A stretch of DNA of 41,048 bases from Moorella sp. Hama-1 (GTDB lineage Bacteria > Bacillota > DSM-521 > Neomoorellales > Neomoorellaceae), in the NCBI RefSeq assembly GCF_023734095.1, contig NZ_AP024620.1, positions 3,283,570-3,324,617 on the forward strand, written 5' to 3'. Shown piece after piece: positions 1,961-27,701 of the stretch (positions are counted from its first letter, which is position 1; each line of letters starts with the position of its first letter). A program made the translations under genes and the position numbers. The notes beneath the pieces were generated by a model. It was not told where the DNA came from, searched no databases, and worked only from the letters and a program-made list of their open reading frames with translations.

Positions 1961-3328
1961 TTAACCCCGGGTATTGACTAGAGCCAGTCCCAGGGCTTCA
2001 CCTACTGTATGCACATCATATACTTCGTAACCGGACCGATCTTTCAGGCCCTTGCTATTGCCCGCCGGGACGATAAAACGGTTAAAACCCAGCCGGGCGG
2101 CCTCTTCAACCCGCCGTTCCAGTTGCGCTACGGCCCGGACTTCCCCCGCCAGGCCGACCTCCCCCAGGACCAGGGTCCGGGATTCCAGGGGGCGGTCCTG
2201 GAGGCTCGAGGCTATGGCCAGACACACGGCCAGGTCCGCCGCCGGTTCGTTGATGGCAATGCCCCCGGCGACGTTGAGGTAGATATCATAACCCCCCAGG
2301 GGCAGGTTGGCCCGCTTTTCCAGCACAGCCGCCAGTAACAGGGCCCGGTTGAAATCTATCCCCGTTGCCAGCCGGCGGGGATTACCAAAGTTGGTCCGGC
2401 TCACCAGGGCCTGGATCTCCAGCAGCAGGGGCCTGGTCCCTTCCAGGCAGGCCACCACGCTGGAACCGGCCACCCCGGCCGGCCTCTCGGCCAGGAGCAT
2501 GGCCGAGGGATTACGAACTTCTTCCAGGCCGGAACCGGCCATTTCGAAAACCCCAATCTCGTTGGTGGAGCCGAAACGGTTTTTGACGGCCCGGAGGATG
2601 CGGTAGGCCTGGTAACGTTCGCCCTCCAGATAGAGGACACAGTCCACCAGATGCTCCAGGACCCGGGGACCGGCCAGGAAGCCCTCCTTGGTAACGTGGC
2701 CCACCAGCAATACCGCCGGGCCGCCACCCTTGGCCAGGCGTAAAAAACGGGCCGCTCCTTCCCGCACCTGGGAAACACTGCCCGGGGCGGCCTGGACCTC
2801 AGGGAGGATCATGGTCTGGATGGAATCAATAATAACTGCTACCGGTTGCAGTTTTTCGATTTGCTCGATGATGGCCGCGATATTTGTCTCAGCCAGCAGG
2901 TAGATGGCGCCGTCCAGCGCTCCCAGGCGCTGGGCGCGGAGGCGGGTCTGCCCGGCGGATTCCTCCCCGGTGACATAGAGGATACTACCATACTTGCAGG
3001 CCAGCAGGTGAGCGACCTGCAGGAGCAGGGTGGATTTGCCGATTCCGGGGGCCCCGCCTACCAGGACCAGAGAACCTGGTACCAGGCCGCCGCCCAGGAC
3101 CCGGTCCCACTCGCCCAGGGAAGTTACCAGCCTCCCGGCGCTGATATCGTTAACTTCAGCCAGCAGGACCGGAGTGGAGGCCGGTGCAGCGGAGCTTTGG
3201 GGACCCCCGGGTATTCCTGGTTCTACCACCAGGCTGTTCCAGCTGCCGCAACCGGGACAGCGCCCCAGGAAGCCCAGGGATTCATAACCGCACTGCTGGC
3301 AGACATAACGTTCCTTGAGCTTGGCCAG
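1961..3328 (-). CDS. radA: DNA repair protein RadA (branch-migration ATPase), probable CTG start
   Basis: RadA processes recombination intermediates. The protein shows the N-terminal C4 zinc finger (CQQCGYESLGFLGRCPGCG), a RecA-like ATPase with Walker A GGAPGIGKST, the RadA-specific KNRFGS motif, and a C-terminal Lon-protease-like domain ending near the stop. The open frame continues upstream to 3646, but that part is translated interspersed repeat. Family members usually begin M-A-K just before the zinc finger, and here that position is CTG (3328), 8 bases after GGAGG. No ATG, GTG or TTG lies between this SD and the zinc finger. From the CTG the product is 455 residues, matching known RadA lengths (~455-460). 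Confidence 0.88.
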   Translation of the reverse strand: MAKLKERYVCQQCGYESLGFLGRCPGCGSWNSLVVEPGIPGGPQSSAAPASTPVLLAEVNDISAGRLVTSLGEWDRVLGGGLVPGSLVLVGGAPGIGKSTLLLQVAHLLACKYGSILYVTGEESAGQTRLRAQRLGALDGAIYLLAETNIAAIIEQIEKLQPVAVIIDSIQTMILPEVQAAPGSVSQVREGAARFLRLAKGGGPAVLLVGHVTKEGFLAGPRVLEHLVDCVLYLEGERYQAYRILRAVKNRFGSTNEIGVFEMAGSGLEEVRNPSAMLLAERPAGVAGSSVVACLEGTRPLLLEIQALVSRTNFGNPRRLATGIDFNRALLLAAVLEKRANLPLGGYDIYLNVAGGIAINEPAADLAVCLAIASSLQDRPLESRTLVLGEVGLAGEVRAVAQLERRVEEAARLGFNRFIVPAGNSKGLKDRSGYEVYDVHTVGEALGLALVNTRG

Positions 3329-3432
3329 TGCTTTTTCCTCCGCAAATAGACTTCTAACAAACCGGTTTCTGGGGGAGCCCCGCATGGGGGCTGACGCGCC
3401 CGTCACGAAAGATGAAAACGCAGGTGGAGGCA

Positions 3433-3675
3433 GGGGCTGGCGGATACAGGCGGAAGGCGACTTGGTTCGAGGCGTTAGCAAACTCAGCGAAGCCGCGGCG
3501 CGGCGGCGGTGAACGGGATGGGGATCGTAACGTAAATTAAGGAACGAAAAATTACGTTCTCCGCTACGCTTATTCGATGGGGATAAAGTCAAGCCACCCT
3601 CGCCGCCGAGGAAGGCTGAGCGTATAGTTTGCTCGCCGAGAACCACCGGAGCCTGGAGCCTGTACCGCCAGCCCC
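3433..3675 (-). repeat. Interspersed repeat family A, copy 1 (243 bp, inverted termini, MITE-like)
   Basis: This 243-bp unit begins and ends with inverted copies of GGGGCTGGCGG-(n)-TACAGG. A second copy of exactly the same length lies at 18316-18558 in the opposite orientation and matches over the whole length with scattered substitutions and compensating small indels. The interior is itself partly palindromic (CGAGCAAAC... pairs with ...GAGTTTGCT), so a transcript would fold into one long hairpin. It has no transposase gene. It sits immediately upstream of radA and is the source of the false N-terminal extension of that frame. Confidence 0.75.
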
Positions 3676-3722
3676 GCGGCTGTTACTGTAAGTTGCAACC
3701 ACTTTTGGCCGAACCCTATTTT

Positions 3723-3863
3723 AGGAGGAGCCCCTCATGGGGGCAAACTCCACCAGCGAACGGGAGAAATGAGAGGCAAGGCTTTAACCTGAAACTGGCG
3801 TAGCCAGTTTCGACGAGCCTCCCACCTCTCACCTCCAACCTCACACATCTCATTTCGGAGGAG
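3723..3863 (+). repeat. Interspersed repeat family B, copy 1 (~140 bp, SD-like termini)
   Basis: The unit starts with AGGAGGAGCCCCTCATGGGG and ends with CATCTCATTTCGGAGGAG. Its centre carries the small palindrome GAAACTGGCGTAGCCAGTTTC. Near-identical units occur at 18611-18705, 24361-24500 and 26718-26856. Here no plus-strand gene follows; the stretch between radA and the PHP gene (3329-3951) holds only repeat A, this repeat B copy and about 80 unassigned bases. Confidence 0.75.
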
Positions 3864-6171: not shown

Positions 6172-6280
6172 ACTACGAGCCGGCAGCCTGGCGATCATAG
6201 CTTCCCGCTGGTTTCTGTTAATCAGGAAGCCTTAGACCCATGGCTTTGTGCCCCCGCCTTTCGACGGGTTTACCCTTGAG
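6172..6280 (-). ncRNA. Cyclic-di-GMP-I (GEMM-I) riboswitch
   Basis: Read on the minus strand, the GEMM-I landmarks occur in order: GTAAACC, a GAAA tetraloop within CGTCGAAAGGCG, GGGGCACAAAGCC, a GGTCTAAGG element, and a second arm with AAGCTATGATCGCCAGG and CTGCCGG. GEMM-I RNAs bind c-di-GMP between the two docked arms. The aptamer is followed by a terminator and then the HD-GYP-like gene at 6092-5523. It lies between that gene and the small AbrB-like gene. Exact aptamer ends are approximate. A cAMP-GMP-sensing variant of the same architecture cannot be excluded by eye. Confidence 0.8.
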
Positions 6281-6315
6281 CAGCCCTGGTTATAAAAAAA
6301 TATGCTTTTTAACCT

Positions 6316-9730: not shown

Positions 9731-9828
9731 TGGCGGGAGTGTGTGGGAATCGAACCCACCGCGCCCGGGTTCGCCGCGCGCCAGCTGGATTTGAAGTCCA
9801 GGCAAGCCACCAGGCCCGATCCACCCCC
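9731..9828 (-). tRNA. selC: tRNA-Sec (anticodon TCA), CCA encoded
   Basis: The 98-nt gene has selenocysteine-tRNA features: an 8-base acceptor side, a 6-bp D stem with four-base loop (CGGGCC-TGGT-GGCTTG), anticodon stem CTGGA/TCCAG with loop CTTCAAA (anticodon TCA, complementary strand 9792-9794), a long variable arm closed by CGCGC/GCGCG, T arm GTGGG-TTCGATT-CCCAC, discriminator G and encoded CCA. The eighth acceptor pair is G-A, a mismatch. It decodes UGA with SelA and SelB, both encoded 7-10 kb upstream on the same strand. Confidence 0.95.
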
Positions 9829-16347: not shown

Positions 16348-18249
16348 TCAACCGATAACCACCCGCTTATCGCCTATACGCCGGGTGAACCTTACCTGAT
16401 CCAGATACTCCAGCAGGGGCAGGACGTATTTACGGGAACTACCCAGGGCGTCCCTGGCCTCGGCCAGGCCAAAGGGGCCATTGGCCCCCAGCTTTTTAAT
16501 GGCCTCCCGGGCTGTATCCAGGGCCTCCCGGTGCCAGTAAAACTCCTCGCTAATTTTTACCAGGACCCCTTTCCGTACCAGGTAATGGAGGAGTTCTTCC
16601 AGTTCCGCTGGAGGAAGGTTATAAGCCTCGAGGAGCTCTTTATATGTCGGCGGCTGCCAGCCAAAGGTGCGGTATTTCTCTTCCAGGCTTCGGGCTAGTC
16701 GCTCCTGTTCGGCGCTAATACGGGGGGTAAAGCCCGCCAGGGATACCGTGTTGGCCGCCAATTGTATACGGCCCTCCCGGTCCCAGTTCTCCAGTAAAGC
16801 CTGGAAGACCCGCGCCGGTAAAAGCGAGAAATACCGGGAACGCAGCTCCTCTCTGGTCAGGCCGGCCCGTAGGGGATAACGGCGGTGAAAATCCGCCAGG
16901 GCCCGGGCCACCTCCTGCCACCAGTTCTGGTAGCGACCGGCATCGACGACATAGAAGTCGTTATCCCCGGCCAGCAGGACAACCTGCCCCGACCTGGCCA
17001 TATCCTGCAGCAGGGCCCTGGTTTCCTCCAGGGGTAAGGAGGCCCTGGCTGCCGCCTCATGCCAATCCAGGCCGTACCGGTGTTCCCGCACCACCTGGGC
17101 GAGGATCTTTTCCGGGGATCCTTCCAAGCGCCGCTGCAGGGAAACCAGGACTTCAGGCTGAAAACGCCGGTGCCGCGGTGGTATGGGATCGATGATCAGT
17201 CCCCCGCCAATAGTTTCCATGGGGGAGTAACTCCGCAGGATGAAACGGTCTTCCCGGTTGGCCACCACCGGTTCCTCCATCAGCAGTTGCAGCAGGGCCT
17301 CTTCGCCACCGGTTAATTCGTCGCGATCGAGGAGAACTACCCTGCCCAGGGCCTCGCTGGTGCCCAGGTAAAAGTGCACCCGGCTGCGGTTGGCCAGTGG
17401 GCGGGCTCCCGCCAGGAGCTTAAAGCAGGCATCAATGCGCAGGGTAGGCTTAAGAAAACCGGGTGTTAGCAGGGAACTGCCCCGGTGGATGGCCCCCGTT
17501 TCGATGCCCGCCAGGTTCACGGCTACACGCTGGCCAGCCCGGGCCTCCTTGACCGGGTGGCCATGGACCTGCAGGTTCCGGGCCCTGGTCTTGAGGCCTT
17601 CCGGCTGGATCTCCAGCTCATCACCAACCTTGATGCTCCCTGACCAGAGGGTGCCGGTAACCACAGTACCAAAACCGGTGACTGTAAAGACCCGATCAAT
17701 GGGTAACCGGACCCGACCGGCAGCCGGCCGGGGCGGGGTTGCTGCCGCCAGGGTCTCCAGTTGCTGCCGCAGCTCCTCGATCCCTTCCCCGGTGAAGGCT
17801 GAGACAGCGACCAGGGGCGCATCCGCCAGTACCGTTCCCTTTACCGCCTGGCGGACCTCCTCCCGTACCAGTTCCAGCCAGTCGGCTTCGACCAGGTCGA
17901 TCTTGGTAATAACAATAATCCCCTTCTTGACCCGCAGGAGATCGATAATGGCCAGGTGTTCCCGGGTCTGGGGCATGACACCTTCGTCAGCAGCCACCAC
18001 TAGCATGACCAGATCCATACCGCCGACGCCGGCCAGCATCTGGCGGATGAACCGTTCGTGGCCGGGCACGTCGACCAGGCCCAGCTGGCGGCCGCTGGGA
18101 AGGGTCAGGGGCGCAAAACCGAGTTCGATGGATATGCCCCGCTCCTTTTCTTCCTTCAGCCGGTCAGTGTCCACTCCAGTTAGAGCTTTGACCAGCACAG
18201 TTTTACCGTGGTCAACATGGCCGGCAGTACCGACAATAATGTAGTCCAC
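16348..18249 (-). CDS. selB: Selenocysteine-specific elongation factor SelB
   Basis: SelB delivers Sec-tRNA to UGA codons marked by a SECIS element. From the GTG at 18249 (10 bases after GGAGGA) the protein has 633 residues and starts [18 protein letters not shown] motifs are [14 protein letters not shown] and TKID. EF-Tu-like domains 2 and 3 follow, then a C-terminal region (about 375-633) of winged helices that binds the SECIS hairpin. The open frame extends to 18453, but the extra 68 residues are translated repeat A and unrelated to SelB. selA lies upstream on the same strand, separated by repeats. Confidence 0.95.
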
Positions 18250-18315
18250 TGGGATACGCTCCTCCGAAAATAGGGTTCTGGCAAAAATGGATTCTTGTGG
18301 TAAGTATTTGGCTCG

Positions 18316-18558
18316 GGGGCTGGCGGTACAGGTCTCCAGGCTCCGTGGTTCTCGGCGAGCAAACTTAGCGCTCAGCCTTCCTCGGCGGCGGGGGTGGCTC
18401 CACTTTATCCCTTTGAATAAGCGCAGCGGGGAGCGGAACTCTTCGTTCCTCAATTTACGTTTCGATCCCCATCCCGTTCACCGCCGCCTCGGTGCGCCTT
18501 CGCTGAGTTTGCTCTGCGCCTCAAACTAAGTCGCCTTCCGCCTGTAGCCGCCAGCCCC
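18316..18558 (+). repeat. Interspersed repeat family A, copy 2 (243 bp, inverted termini)
   Basis: It begins GGGGCTGGCGGTACAGG and ends CCTGTAGCCGCCAGCCCC, and has the same length as the copy at 3433-3675 but lies in the opposite orientation. It sits in the leader of selB. A third, decayed right end (CCTGTACCCACCAGCCCC) occurs near 18708-18725. Confidence 0.75.
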
Positions 18559-18773
18559 TTCCCTCAGCCTACATTTTCATAGTCCGTGGAGGGGGGCGTT
18601 AGCCCCCCATGAGGGGCTCCTCCGAAATGAGATGTGTGAGGTGGGAGGTGAGAGGTGGGAGGCTCGGCGAAACCGGCTGCGCCAGTTTCAGATTAAAGCC
18701 CTGCCTGCCTGTACCCACCAGCCCCTCGCCTCAGCCGGCATTTTTATAGTTCTCCAAAGGGGCATCACGTCCA
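18559..18773 (-). repeat. Composite repeat region including family B copy 2
   Basis: On the minus strand the family B core (CTTTAATCTGAAACTGGCGC, then GCCTCCCACCTCTCACC) ends in CATCTCATTTCGGAGGAG at about 18611. It is followed by GCCCCTCATGGGGGGC and a GC-rich palindrome (about 18583-18608). Together with repeat A this fills the 520-base gap between selA and selB; no gene is visible. Confidence 0.65.
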
Positions 18774-20195
18774 CTAAGGGCTCCCTTGGAAGTATCTCTT
18801 GTCTCCTCCCTCCAGGGCCTGGACCAGGGCCCGGGCCAGTTCCTCCCCCTCACCCGGCAGCAGGGTCCGGACATCTAAAATCAGGAGGTCTTCCTGCACC
18901 CGCCCCAGGACTGGGGGATCCGTCCGGCGGAGGGCCAGGGCCAATTCTGTCACCCCCAGCTGCGCCGGCTGGATGGTCACTCCCCAGGATGGTAATTCTG
19001 TCAGTGGCAGGGCACCGCCGCCAGCCTGGGAGGTAGTAGCTATCAAGCCTACCCTGGCCCTGGTCCCCAGTACTCCGGCCACCAGCACTTGCAGTTGTTC
19101 GGCCCGGCGGCGCAGCTCAGGCGCTGTAAGGGTCAGGGCCGCCAGGGTAGGGATCTCCTGCCGGGCCCGGTCCGGGTTCCGGTAAGCCTGCAGGGTGGCC
19201 TCCAGGGCGGCCAGGGTCATCTTATCAACCCGCAGGGCCCTGGTTAAGGGATGCCGGGCCATGACCGCCACCAGGTCCCGGCGACCGACGATTATACCTG
19301 CCTGGGGCCCGCCCAGGAGTTTATCGCCGCTAAAGGTAACCACATCCACTCCCTGCTCTACCTCCGCCTGGACGGTGGGTTCACCGGTAATGCCGTGGGA
19401 CTCCAGGTCGCAGAGAAAACCGCTGCCCAGATCCTCCATCACCGGCAGCCCCACCCGGCGGCCCAGTTCCACCAGTTCGGCCGTGGTGACCTCCCGGGTG
19501 AACCCCTGAATGCGGTAATTACTGGGATGGACCTTGAGTAGCAGGGCCGTTTCCGGACCCAGGGCCTGTTCGTAATCCCGGAGGTAGGTTTTGTTGGTAG
19601 TCCCCACCTCGACCAGTCTCGTGCCGCTCTGGGCCATAACCTCTGGTATGCGAAAGGAGCCGCCAATCTCCACCAGCTGGCCCCGGGAGATTATGGTTTC
19701 CCGGCCCCTGGCCAGGCTCGAAAGGGCCAGCAGGACGGCGGCGGCATTATTGTTGACCACCAGGGCGTCTTCAGCCCCGGTAAGTTCCTGTAATAACCCC
19801 GTCACGTGGCTGTACCGGTTACCGCGCTGGCCGTTCTCCAGGTCAAATTCCAGGTTGGTATAACGGCCGGCAGCCTGCACGGCCGCCTCCCTGGCAGCCG
19901 GGCTCAAAACGGCCCGTCCCAGGTTGGTATGTAGGACCACGCCGGTGGCGTTGATTACCGGCCGCAGACTGCTGCGGCTGGCGGCGCCATACCTGGTCTC
20001 TATCTCCCGGGCCAATTGGTCCGGAGCCGGCAGGGTGGTGGCCCCGTTTTTTATTCTCTGCCGCCAGTCATCCAGGACCCGGCGGGTAATGGTCAGGATC
20101 ATCTGGTGGTCCGCCTGGCTTAAATCCCTCAGGCGGGACTGTTGCAGCAACTGGTCCACGGCCGGCAATTGCCGCAGTAACTCCTTCTGCTCCAT
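18774..20195 (-). CDS. selA: L-seryl-tRNA(Sec) selenium transferase
   Basis: SelA converts seryl-tRNA(Sec) to selenocysteinyl-tRNA(Sec) using selenophosphate and PLP. The protein has 473 residues, the usual size. Visible motifs are the N-terminal LPAVDQLL, NATGVVLHTNLGRAVLS, VNNNAAAVLLAL, the PLP-lysine region FSGDKLLGGPQAG and the C-terminal catalytic half. The ATG at 20195 lies 5 bases after GGAGGA. Its SD is embedded in ATCTCATTGCGGAGGAA, resembling the repeat B terminus. The last residues (YFQGSP) run into repeat-derived sequence, so the C-terminus may have been altered by repeat insertion. Confidence 0.95.
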   Translation of the reverse strand: MEQKELLRQLPAVDQLLQQSRLRDLSQADHQMILTITRRVLDDWRQRIKNGATTLPAPDQLAREIETRYGAASRSSLRPVINATGVVLHTNLGRAVLSPAAREAAVQAAGRYTNLEFDLENGQRGNRYSHVTGLLQELTGAEDALVVNNNAAAVLLALSSLARGRETIISRGQLVEIGGSFRIPEVMAQSGTRLVEVGTTNKTYLRDYEQALGPETALLLKVHPSNYRIQGFTREVTTAELVELGRRVGLPVMEDLGSGFLCDLESHGITGEPTVQAEVEQGVDVVTFSGDKLLGGPQAGIIVGRRDLVAVMARHPLTRALRVDKMTLAALEATLQAYRNPDRARQEIPTLAALTLTAPELRRRAEQLQVLVAGVLGTRARVGLIATTSQAGGGALPLTELPSWGVTIQPAQLGVTELALALRRTDPPVLGRVQEDLLILDVRTLLPGEGEELARALVQALEGGDKRYFQGSP

Positions 20196-23726: not shown

Positions 23727-24356
23727 TTAATTTAAACCCAGGCAGGCCCGCACCTCGGTATCGGTAACCTGACGAAAGTCTTCATAAAATTGACCTACAG
23801 CATAGAAGGGCTCGGGACTGGCTAGGCAAAGCAAGTCATCAACCAGGGGTTCCAGGGTCGTCAAGCTCTCTGGCGGCGCTACGGGCACGGCCAGGACCAG
23901 GCGGCGCGGTTTTTTACTACGCAGGGAAGTTAAGGCTGCCGCTATAGTTAACCCGGTGGCAATACCATCGTCGACAACTATAACCAAGCGGCCCCTCAGA
24001 TCCGGGTAGAGCCGGGACCCCCGGTACAGGGCCTGGCGCCTTTTAATCTCGGTCAGTTCGTCTTCTATAGCCCCTTTTAAGTCGGCTAGCGTCACGTTAT
24101 AGGCCTGCAAGACCCGGTGGTTATACAGGACGGTACCATCGGGAGCAACCGCGGCTGCAGCTAACTCCGGGTTGGCCGGCAGACCTACCTTGCGGGGGAT
24201 TAGCAAATCCAGTTCGCCGTCCAGGGCTCTGGCCACCGGCAGGGCTACGATCACTCCGCCCCGGGGAACAGCCAGCACTACCGGATCTTGCCCGCGGTAG
24301 CCCTGCAGGGCAGCAGCCAACTGCCGGCCCGCATCCTGTCGATCTTGAAAAAGCAT
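23727..24356 (-). CDS. Phosphoribosyltransferase family protein
   Basis: The 209-residue protein has a type-I phosphoribosyltransferase fold. The PRPP-binding motif is VIVVDDGIATGLT, and the N-terminal VLAVPRGGVIVALPVARALDGELDLLIPRKVG is typical of the subfamily often annotated 'predicted phosphoribosyltransferase'. No substrate can be assigned. The ATG at 24356 follows GGAGGAGCCACC. That SD is the terminus of repeat B copy 3, and the upstream extension of the frame to 24509 is repeat sequence. Confidence 0.85.
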   Translation of the reverse strand: MLFQDRQDAGRQLAAALQGYRGQDPVVLAVPRGGVIVALPVARALDGELDLLIPRKVGLPANPELAAAAVAPDGTVLYNHRVLQAYNVTLADLKGAIEDELTEIKRRQALYRGSRLYPDLRGRLVIVVDDGIATGLTIAAALTSLRSKKPRRLVLAVPVAPPESLTTLEPLVDDLLCLASPEPFYAVGQFYEDFRQVTDTEVRACLGLN

Positions 24357-24360
24357 GGTG

Positions 24361-24500
24361 GCTCCTCCGAAATGAGATGTGTGAGGTGGGAGGCTCGTTG
24401 AAACTGGTTGCGCCAGTTTCAGATTAAAGCCTTGCCTCTCATTTCTCCCGTTCGCTGGTGGAGTTTGCCCCCATGAGGGGCTCCTCCGAAATGAGATGGC
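24361..24500 (-). repeat. Interspersed repeat family B, copy 3, supplying the SD of the downstream gene
   Basis: Read on the minus strand: CATCTCATTTCGGAGGAG (about 24500), CCCCTCATGGGGGC, the core with TGAAACTGGCG-CA-ACCAGTTTC, and a second CATCTCATTTCGGAGGAG that ends 6 bases before the ATG at 24356. The unit is thus bracketed by direct copies of the same 18-base word, as after a duplication of the leader. Confidence 0.75.
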
Positions 24501-26492: not shown

Positions 26493-26870
26493 TTTCCTCT
26501 CTCCTAATGCATTTTTTTCACCAGAAACCCTGGAGTCAGGGGGGTAATATTTCCTGATTTAAAATAGCCCCTCCAGGAAGGATTTATAGCCTCCGGAAGA
26601 GAAAAGATCTAAATTTGCCAGGCCCGGGGCCTGGCCGAAGCCCGGAGCCTATACCACCAGCCAATAGCAAAATGCTGGCCATTAGTGTCCCTTTATGGTA
26701 GAAGTCTATTTTCGGAGGAGCCGACCATGGTGGCGGGCCGCCACCAACGAAGGGAAGAAATGAGAGGCGGGCAAGTTTTAATCTGAAACTGGCGCAGCCA
26801 GTTTCGACAAGAATCCCACCTCTCACTCCCACATCTCAATATCTCATTTCGGACGAGGAGATGCTTCACT
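26493..26870 (+). repeat. Leader region of larE containing family B copy 4 (26718-26856) and a decayed family A end
   Basis: AGAAGTCTATTTTCGGAGGAG (26701-26720, first base omitted) opens the unit. The core has TGAAACTGGCGCAGCCAGTTTC (two halves of a palindrome), and it closes with ATCTCATTTCGGACGAGGAG shortly before the larE ATG at 26871. A short word CCTATACCACCAGCC near 26650 resembles the family A terminus. No gene is visible in this gap. Confidence 0.65.
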
Positions 26871-27701
26871 ATGTTATCTTCTGAATTAAACACCAAGCTG
26901 GCCACCCTCCAGGGGAAACTCCAAGAATGGGAAAGCATCCTGATTGCCTATTCTGGAGGCGTGGATAGCAGCCTGCTCCTTAAAGTAGCCAGTATGACGC
27001 CGGTTAAGGTCCTGGCCGTGACCGCCGTTTCCCCTACCTACCCGCAGGCCGAAATCGCCGCTGCCACCGACCTGGCCCGGAAACTGGGGGTCCAGCACAT
27101 GGTAATTAATTCCAAAGAGATGGGTAACCCGAAATTCTGTGCCAACCCCCCGGAACGCTGTTATCACTGCAAAAAGGAGTTATTCGCCGACCTGCAAAAG
27201 CTAGCGTGGGAACACGGACTCAAGGTTATAGTTGACGGGGCCAACATCGACGATTGCGATGACTTCCGCCCCGGTAGAAAAGCCGCCCGGGAGTGTGGCG
27301 TTAAAAGCCCCCTCCAGGAAGCCGGCTTGACCAAGGCCGACATCCGCCAGCTGGCCCGTCACCTGGGATTACCCAACTGGGATAAGCCCTCTATGGCCTG
27401 TCTGTCTTCCCGCATACCTTACGGACAGATGATAACCCCGGCCAAGCTTGGGCAGGTTGCTGCCGCCGAAGCCTACCTGCGCCAACTCGGATTGCAGGAG
27501 ATACGAGTGCGCCACCACGGCAGCATCGCCAGGATCGAAGTTAACCCGGCCGCCTTTGCCCTTCTTATTGACAACCAAGTGCGGCAGGCCATGGTTGACC
27601 GTTTCCATGAAATCGGGTTCACCTACGTTACCCTGGATCTGGAAGGCTTCCGCAGCGGGAGTATGAACGCCGTTCTATCGGCAGAAGAACGAAAGTTATA
27701 G
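26871..27701 (+). CDS. larE: LarE, ATP-dependent sulfur transferase for the nickel-pincer cofactor
   Basis: The 276-residue protein is a PP-loop ATPase with SGGVDSSLLLK near residue 28. LarE adds sulfur to the pyridinium dicarboxylate precursor of the nickel-pincer nucleotide used by lactate racemase and related enzymes. Cysteines occur in NPPERCYHCKKELF and PSMACLSSR. Whether sulfur comes from a sacrificial Cys or an iron-sulfur cluster cannot be decided here. larC follows 213 bases downstream; larB and larA are absent from the window. Its leader is repeat B. Confidence 0.92.
   Translation: MLSSELNTKLATLQGKLQEWESILIAYSGGVDSSLLLKVASMTPVKVLAVTAVSPTYPQAEIAAATDLARKLGVQHMVINSKEMGNPKFCANPPERCYHCKKELFADLQKLAWEHGLKVIVDGANIDDCDDFRPGRKAARECGVKSPLQEAGLTKADIRQLARHLGLPNWDKPSMACLSSRIPYGQMITPAKLGQVAAAEAYLRQLGLQEIRVRHHGSIARIEVNPAAFALLIDNQVRQAMVDRFHEIGFTYVTLDLEGFRSGSMNAVLSAEERKL

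Follow-up and report, generated by a model that had tools for sequence, protein, structure and literature searches.

The window, that is, the whole 41,048-nucleotide stretch of the Moorella sp. Hama-1 genome analysed here, carries radA, selB, selA, larE, and a phosphoribosyltransferase-like gene whose family assignment is weak (E about 1e-6), and copies of two small repeats, elements A and B, lie in the leaders and spacers around them (Table 1). The window is the end of a single contig of 3,324,617 bases. A preliminary description of this DNA had recognized four B units, and all four were found, one of them as a chimera that at its 5' edge runs into the 3' end of selA. It had also placed the phosphoribosyltransferase copy between two direct copies of the end word, both of which are exact, and had seen in front of selA a shortened version of this word, which is real and looks like the tail of a lost B copy. 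The words before selB and radA, which it had taken as relatives of B, are present, but they are the tail of element A and not of B; the short A tail before radA is the probable Shine-Dalgarno (SD) sequence of that gene. Within the window, the 17-letter end word ATCTCATTTCGGAGGAG has five matches at zero or one mismatch (exact at 3847, 18617, 24362, and 24481, with one mismatch at 26841), and seven at up to three mismatches, compared with 0.06 expected from shuffles. The preliminary description had missed that A is a second family, that a start codon is conserved after the left SD, and that tail scars exist, as well as the exceptions to gene-proximal placement, which make up about a quarter of the chains. 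Elsewhere in the window are a selenocysteine tRNA gene (9731-9828, minus strand), in the same region as selA and selB, and a c-di-GMP-I riboswitch aptamer (6179-6284, minus strand). The longest-ORF starts of radA (1961-3646) and selB (16348-18453) read through element A, and the true starts lie downstream.

Table 1. Element copies, short element tails, and associated genes in the window (window positions)
Feature	Position	Strand	Remarks
A tail without body (putative scar), GAAGTCTATTTGCGGAGGAA	3335..3359	-	Before radA
Element A, full	3375..3730	+	Points away from radA
Element B	3716..3863	+	Chained behind A 3375..3730; no sense start codon downstream
selB	16348..18249	-	TIGR00475; start moved from 18453
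Element A, full	18259..18619	-	Before selB; longest selB ORF reads through part of A
Chimera, A head joined to 3' half of B	18617..18794	-	Upstream of the selB A copy
B tail without body (putative scar), ATCTCATTGCGGAGGAA	20200..20216	-	SD of selA
Phosphoribosyltransferase-like gene	23727..24356	-	Start codon 5 nt past right SD of B copy
Element B	24362..24500	-	Ahead of phosphoribosyltransferase gene, with CATCTCATTTCGGAGGAG on either side
Element A, 5'-truncated (its positions 247-359)	26606..26720	+	Directly ahead of larE B copy
Element B	26704..26857	+	Before larE; left SD 26714-26720
larE	26871..27701	+	TIGR00268

Beyond the window, profiles applied to 334 kb of the 3.32-Mb genome gave 67 scored pieces of element B (about 140 bp) and 63 of element A (about 360 bp), grouped in 97 chains; as the 334 kb are stretches selected by element hits and the end word, these counts are not a census, and as the search scores only about 40 candidates per genome, they are lower bounds. 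Together, the two elements have more than 100 dispersed copies in this genome. A pattern search added 14 further heads, nearly all of them extra A or B copies or their remnants, some internally deleted, and one head match in this genome had no A or B body. The two elements have the same ends: the common 5' end is CCCCTCATG, A begins with the same GGAGCCCCTCATGGGGGC as B, and the 3' ends are CTATTTTC in A, which terminates in CTATTTTCGGAGGAG, and CTCATTTC in B. No terminal inverted repeats were found, the 5' CCCCTCATGG having no match to the reverse-complemented 3' end of A (GAAAATAG) or B (GAAATGAG). In many chains, A and B follow each other (A-B or B-A) and share one SD word between them, the tail of B varies in length mostly by 7-nt steps (26, 33, 40, and 47), and 5'-truncated copies of A occur. 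Short A or B tails without a body precede several SDs (rplL, fba, radA, and selA) and are most simply explained as scars of deleted copies. The RNA of both elements is predicted to fold better than shuffled sequences (z of -4.2 for B, and of -6.9 for the A copy before selB). A claim of covarying base pairs in these folds was dropped, as the pairs are mostly invariant.

The copies are not placed at random relative to genes. The start codon of a coding-like ORF lies 2-18 nt, mostly 7-10 nt, past the intact 3' end in 69 of 91 chains, compared with 4 of 97 for the antisense control at the left edge, 12% for random positions, and 8% for random intergenic positions; gene starts came from a simple codon-usage caller, whose first pass rewarded SDs, whereas the 69/91 test did not. 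The earlier claim that B sits directly before start codons stands for most chains but not for all: the B copy at the radA end of the window is directed away from radA, faces a PHP gene from its 3' side, and precedes the start codon of neither neighbor. Overall, a nearby sense start is lacking for about one-quarter of the chains whose 3' end is intact; some of these reflect missed small genes, and others are true exceptions (window 3375-3863 and genome positions 632147, 951727, and 1525773). The word TTTCGGAGGAG occurs 89 times in the genome, compared with 4 times for its reversed control, and 84 of the 89 occurrences lie at same-strand borders of A or B pieces; therefore, the end word is not simply the general SD context of this organism. 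Replication-strand bias was considered as the cause of the orientation and rejected, as lagging-strand copies before a gene keep the direction of that gene (10 chains). The genes behind the copies are functionally unrelated and include rplL, obg, efp, glyA, folD, glmU, fba, ftsW, carA, larE, and selB, where names outside the window were read from translations without family searches.

To locate the insertion points, 14 loci were compared with up to five relatives. In the nearest relatives, G009 and G010, the element is absent at every locus found except obg, which has remnants of A, and empty sites in these and other genomes include efp, yajC, lysC, rplL, glyA, metF, selB, glnB, and folD. With the insertion point written as a slash, the ancestral sequences are GTAGGAG/GTATT (efp), GAAGGAG/TGGTGG (yajC), AAGGAG/GAATTT (rplL), TTCTGGAGGAG/GTTACTATG (lysC, SD word GGAGGAG), GAGGAG/GTTTAGCTT (glnB), TTCCAAGGGAG/CGTAT (selB), TTTTCGAAGGAG/GCCT (glyA), and TTTCAAAGGAG/GCAA (metF). 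Thus, A or B is placed immediately 3' of the ancestral SD. The leaders of larE and the phosphoribosyltransferase gene are too diverged in the relatives for a base-exact insertion point. The left flank of the lysC copy (G000:C1 1571093-1571450, G000 being this genome) has a tandem 12-bp duplication, ATTCTGGAGGAG, absent from the relatives.

An SD word stands on both sides of the copies. At efp (GTAGGAG), yajC (GAAGGAG), and metF and rplL (AAAGGAG), the ancestral non-consensus word now flanks the element on both sides, and two-sided non-consensus words are also present at the copies at 2611870, 267398, and 573390. When the left and right words of 85 copies are compared from position -7 to -1, they match 512 times, versus 495.6 +/- 3.4 after permutation (0 of 10,000 permutations reach 512, p<1e-4); the signal comes from positions -7 and -6, and none is clear at -8. 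In many copies, for example at selB and folD, a host-like word on the left is paired with the consensus on the right. It seems, therefore, that the two-sided word of about 7 bp is in part a target duplication and in part borne by the element, and a simple target duplication is not general because the left word often differs from the consensus right word. The earlier proposal that the element enters or duplicates leaders at the SD while the gene stays translatable is thus supported as regards entry immediately 3' of the SD, and as regards duplication in a subset only.

The left SD acquires a start codon from the element. In 91 of 99 copies, a start codon lies exactly 6 nt past the left SD, and in B the ATG is retained in about 95% of copies, although positions +2 to +5 are variable. 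Of the 91 short ORFs opened in this way, 90 terminate ahead of the right SD, with predicted peptides such as MGANSTSEREK, MTAYRRQRTGEMRVR, and MGADAPTTKI, each followed by a stop codon. A coding function for this peptide was considered and rejected, as the start codon is conserved but the peptide and the frame are not. Sequestration of the SD by the element was likewise set aside, as predicted accessibility shows no clear effect when the element is compared with the reconstructed empty site (0.33 versus 0.40 for B, p 0.05; 0.36 versus 0.40 for A, p 0.35).

Within the genus, 10 of the 11 genomes compared contain A, as does 1 of 11 genomes of the same class outside it, and the copies in relatives with an intact 3' end are nearly all before the starts of other genes (fabD, recA, glmU, pgk, and rseP). 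B is abundant in this genome, G004, and G006 and nearly absent elsewhere; Moorella sp. UBA4076 and one Clostridia MAG contain a match to its 26-base core. Different species have sites in common, namely flhA, fabD, rseP, and rsmB for A, and ftsW and carA for B. Either some insertions are therefore old, or a site has been hit twice.

From these observations, we consider it probable (roughly 0.8) that A and B represent two families of small mobile elements, non-autonomous and targeted to SD sites, and the two probably share one mobilizing machinery, an enzyme that would act in trans. Insertion would occur in one orientation, immediately 3' of an SD-like NNRGGAG word, and would leave an SD word of about 7 bp on both sides, which some copies would owe to duplication of the target and others, apparently, to the element itself. 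The resulting leader would read SD, 6 nt, ATG, short ORF, stop codon, structured RNA, SD, and gene, so that the upstream SD would be given the start codon of the element and translate the short ORF, and the downstream SD would still drive the gene. Since the right SD keeps its spacing to the start codon, the host gene should remain translatable, and insertions could therefore survive, even inside operons such as rplJ-rplL. Among the heads searched in this genome, none is followed by a longer element with coding capacity for a protein, as expected of an autonomous copy, and a comparison of reverse transcriptase (RT), Y1 transposase, and IS110 genes with element numbers found no enzyme tied to the elements.

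How such elements would move could be explained in two ways: (i) they are MITE-type derivatives of a DDE transposon with a 7-bp target duplication, and the SD position is mainly the class of survivors after other insertions were lost, or (ii) they move through a single-strand or RNA-based route, such as an IS200/IS605-like or bridge-RNA IS110-like mechanism or retroposition via SD pairing. The first is somewhat less likely than not. Size and copy number are MITE-like, and words resembling target duplications exist at several loci, as in the two-sided words of about 7 bp at efp, yajC, metF, and rplL and the left/right covariation; however, most copies whose left word departs from the consensus do not show this trait, terminal inverted repeats are lacking, the sense orientation is strict with antisense placement rare, and insertion is always at the same RGGAG edge. 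The second, which we regard as no more and no less likely than the first, would account for the asymmetric ends, the hairpins, the single orientation, the 7-nt steps of the B tail, and the 5'-truncated A copies. IS200/IS605-derived palindromic elements (PATE and REP) resemble A and B in their asymmetric hairpin ends and their insertion 3' of a short fixed word, but they make no target duplication, and two-sided target words are not expected for IS200/IS605. In addition, no Y1 transposase (PF01797) was found in this genome, although it could have been lost, and the numbers of RT and IS110 genes do not track those of the elements: one intact RT is present in this genome, whereas the B-rich G004 and G006, both incomplete, show neither RT nor IS110.

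Explanations other than mobility fit less well than mobilization in trans into RGGAG words in one orientation. If A and B were conserved cis-regulatory RNA leaders, riboswitch- or thermometer-like, copied to many genes with the SD in the expression platform, their strong folding and the sites common to several species (carA, ftsW, flhA, fabD, and rseP) would be explained; yet neither matches an Rfam covariance model at gathering or permissive thresholds, the associated genes have no common pathway, SD accessibility is barely changed relative to the empty site, and G009 and G010 lack the element at almost every one of the 14 loci compared, which together make this reading very improbable. The spread of immobile leader cassettes by SD-word-mediated recombination or gene conversion, which would suit the 7-20 bp words common at borders and the A-B and B-A chains and chimeras, is scarcely credible given that the empty sites are clean and the shared sequence amounts to just about 7 bp, and given the more than 100 dispersed copies.

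None of the bacterial repeats treated in the parts of the reviews considered here (ERIC, Correia, RUP, BOX, and YPAL) is described there as SD-targeting (PMC2229807, PMC10969869, PMC3049150). YPAL/RU-2 of Yersinia (168 bp) comes nearest, being small and non-coding, without TA ends, and having internal inverted repeats and target duplications of variable size, but it targets areas of dyad symmetry, and the cited portion describes neither SDs nor start codons at the ends of the repeat (PMC2229807). ERIC, Correia/NEMIS, RUP, and other bacterial MITEs are also about 100-150 bp, multicopy, structured when transcribed, and near genes (PMC10969869, PMC2229807), but they have terminal inverted repeats and mostly TA targets, and the sections consulted describe no fixed-sense placement at SDs. 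Similarly, BOX of pneumococcus is modular, measures a few hundred bp at most, lies close to genes, and can create ORFs, but it has terminal inverted repeats, and no SD targeting is described in the portion cited (PMC3049150). The open-access literature searched held no relevant description of SD-targeting repeats or of Moorella repeats.

As a rule, mobile elements stay clear of expression signals or impair them, whereas here the ribosome-binding site appears to be the landing site. Taking the evidence for the whole reading together, we propose tentatively, at somewhat less than even odds, that A and B are genus-wide mobile elements with the SD itself as the target, perhaps recognized via nucleic-acid pairing, and that the start codon they carry opens a short ORF at the captured SD and so keeps ribosome traffic on both sides. 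This architecture would explain why essential operons (rplJ-rplL) tolerate copies within them and why copies are also tolerated in front of genes such as obg, efp, glyA, and folD. If true, safe-site targeting would gain a new example, and more than 100 genes would have a natural source of structured leaders; the reading also raises the questions of which enzyme reads the SD and whether the short ORF is translated.

A third element type was observed in the relatives G005 and G001 (L232, L252, L223, and L243; upstream of obg, folD, rplL, and glyA), with the head ACCCTCATACCGCTAA, the tail AGTTATTTTC, and the stem GGCTGGCATT/AATGCCAGCC. It does not lie at the SD before glyA, but it does lie at the SDs before obg and folD.
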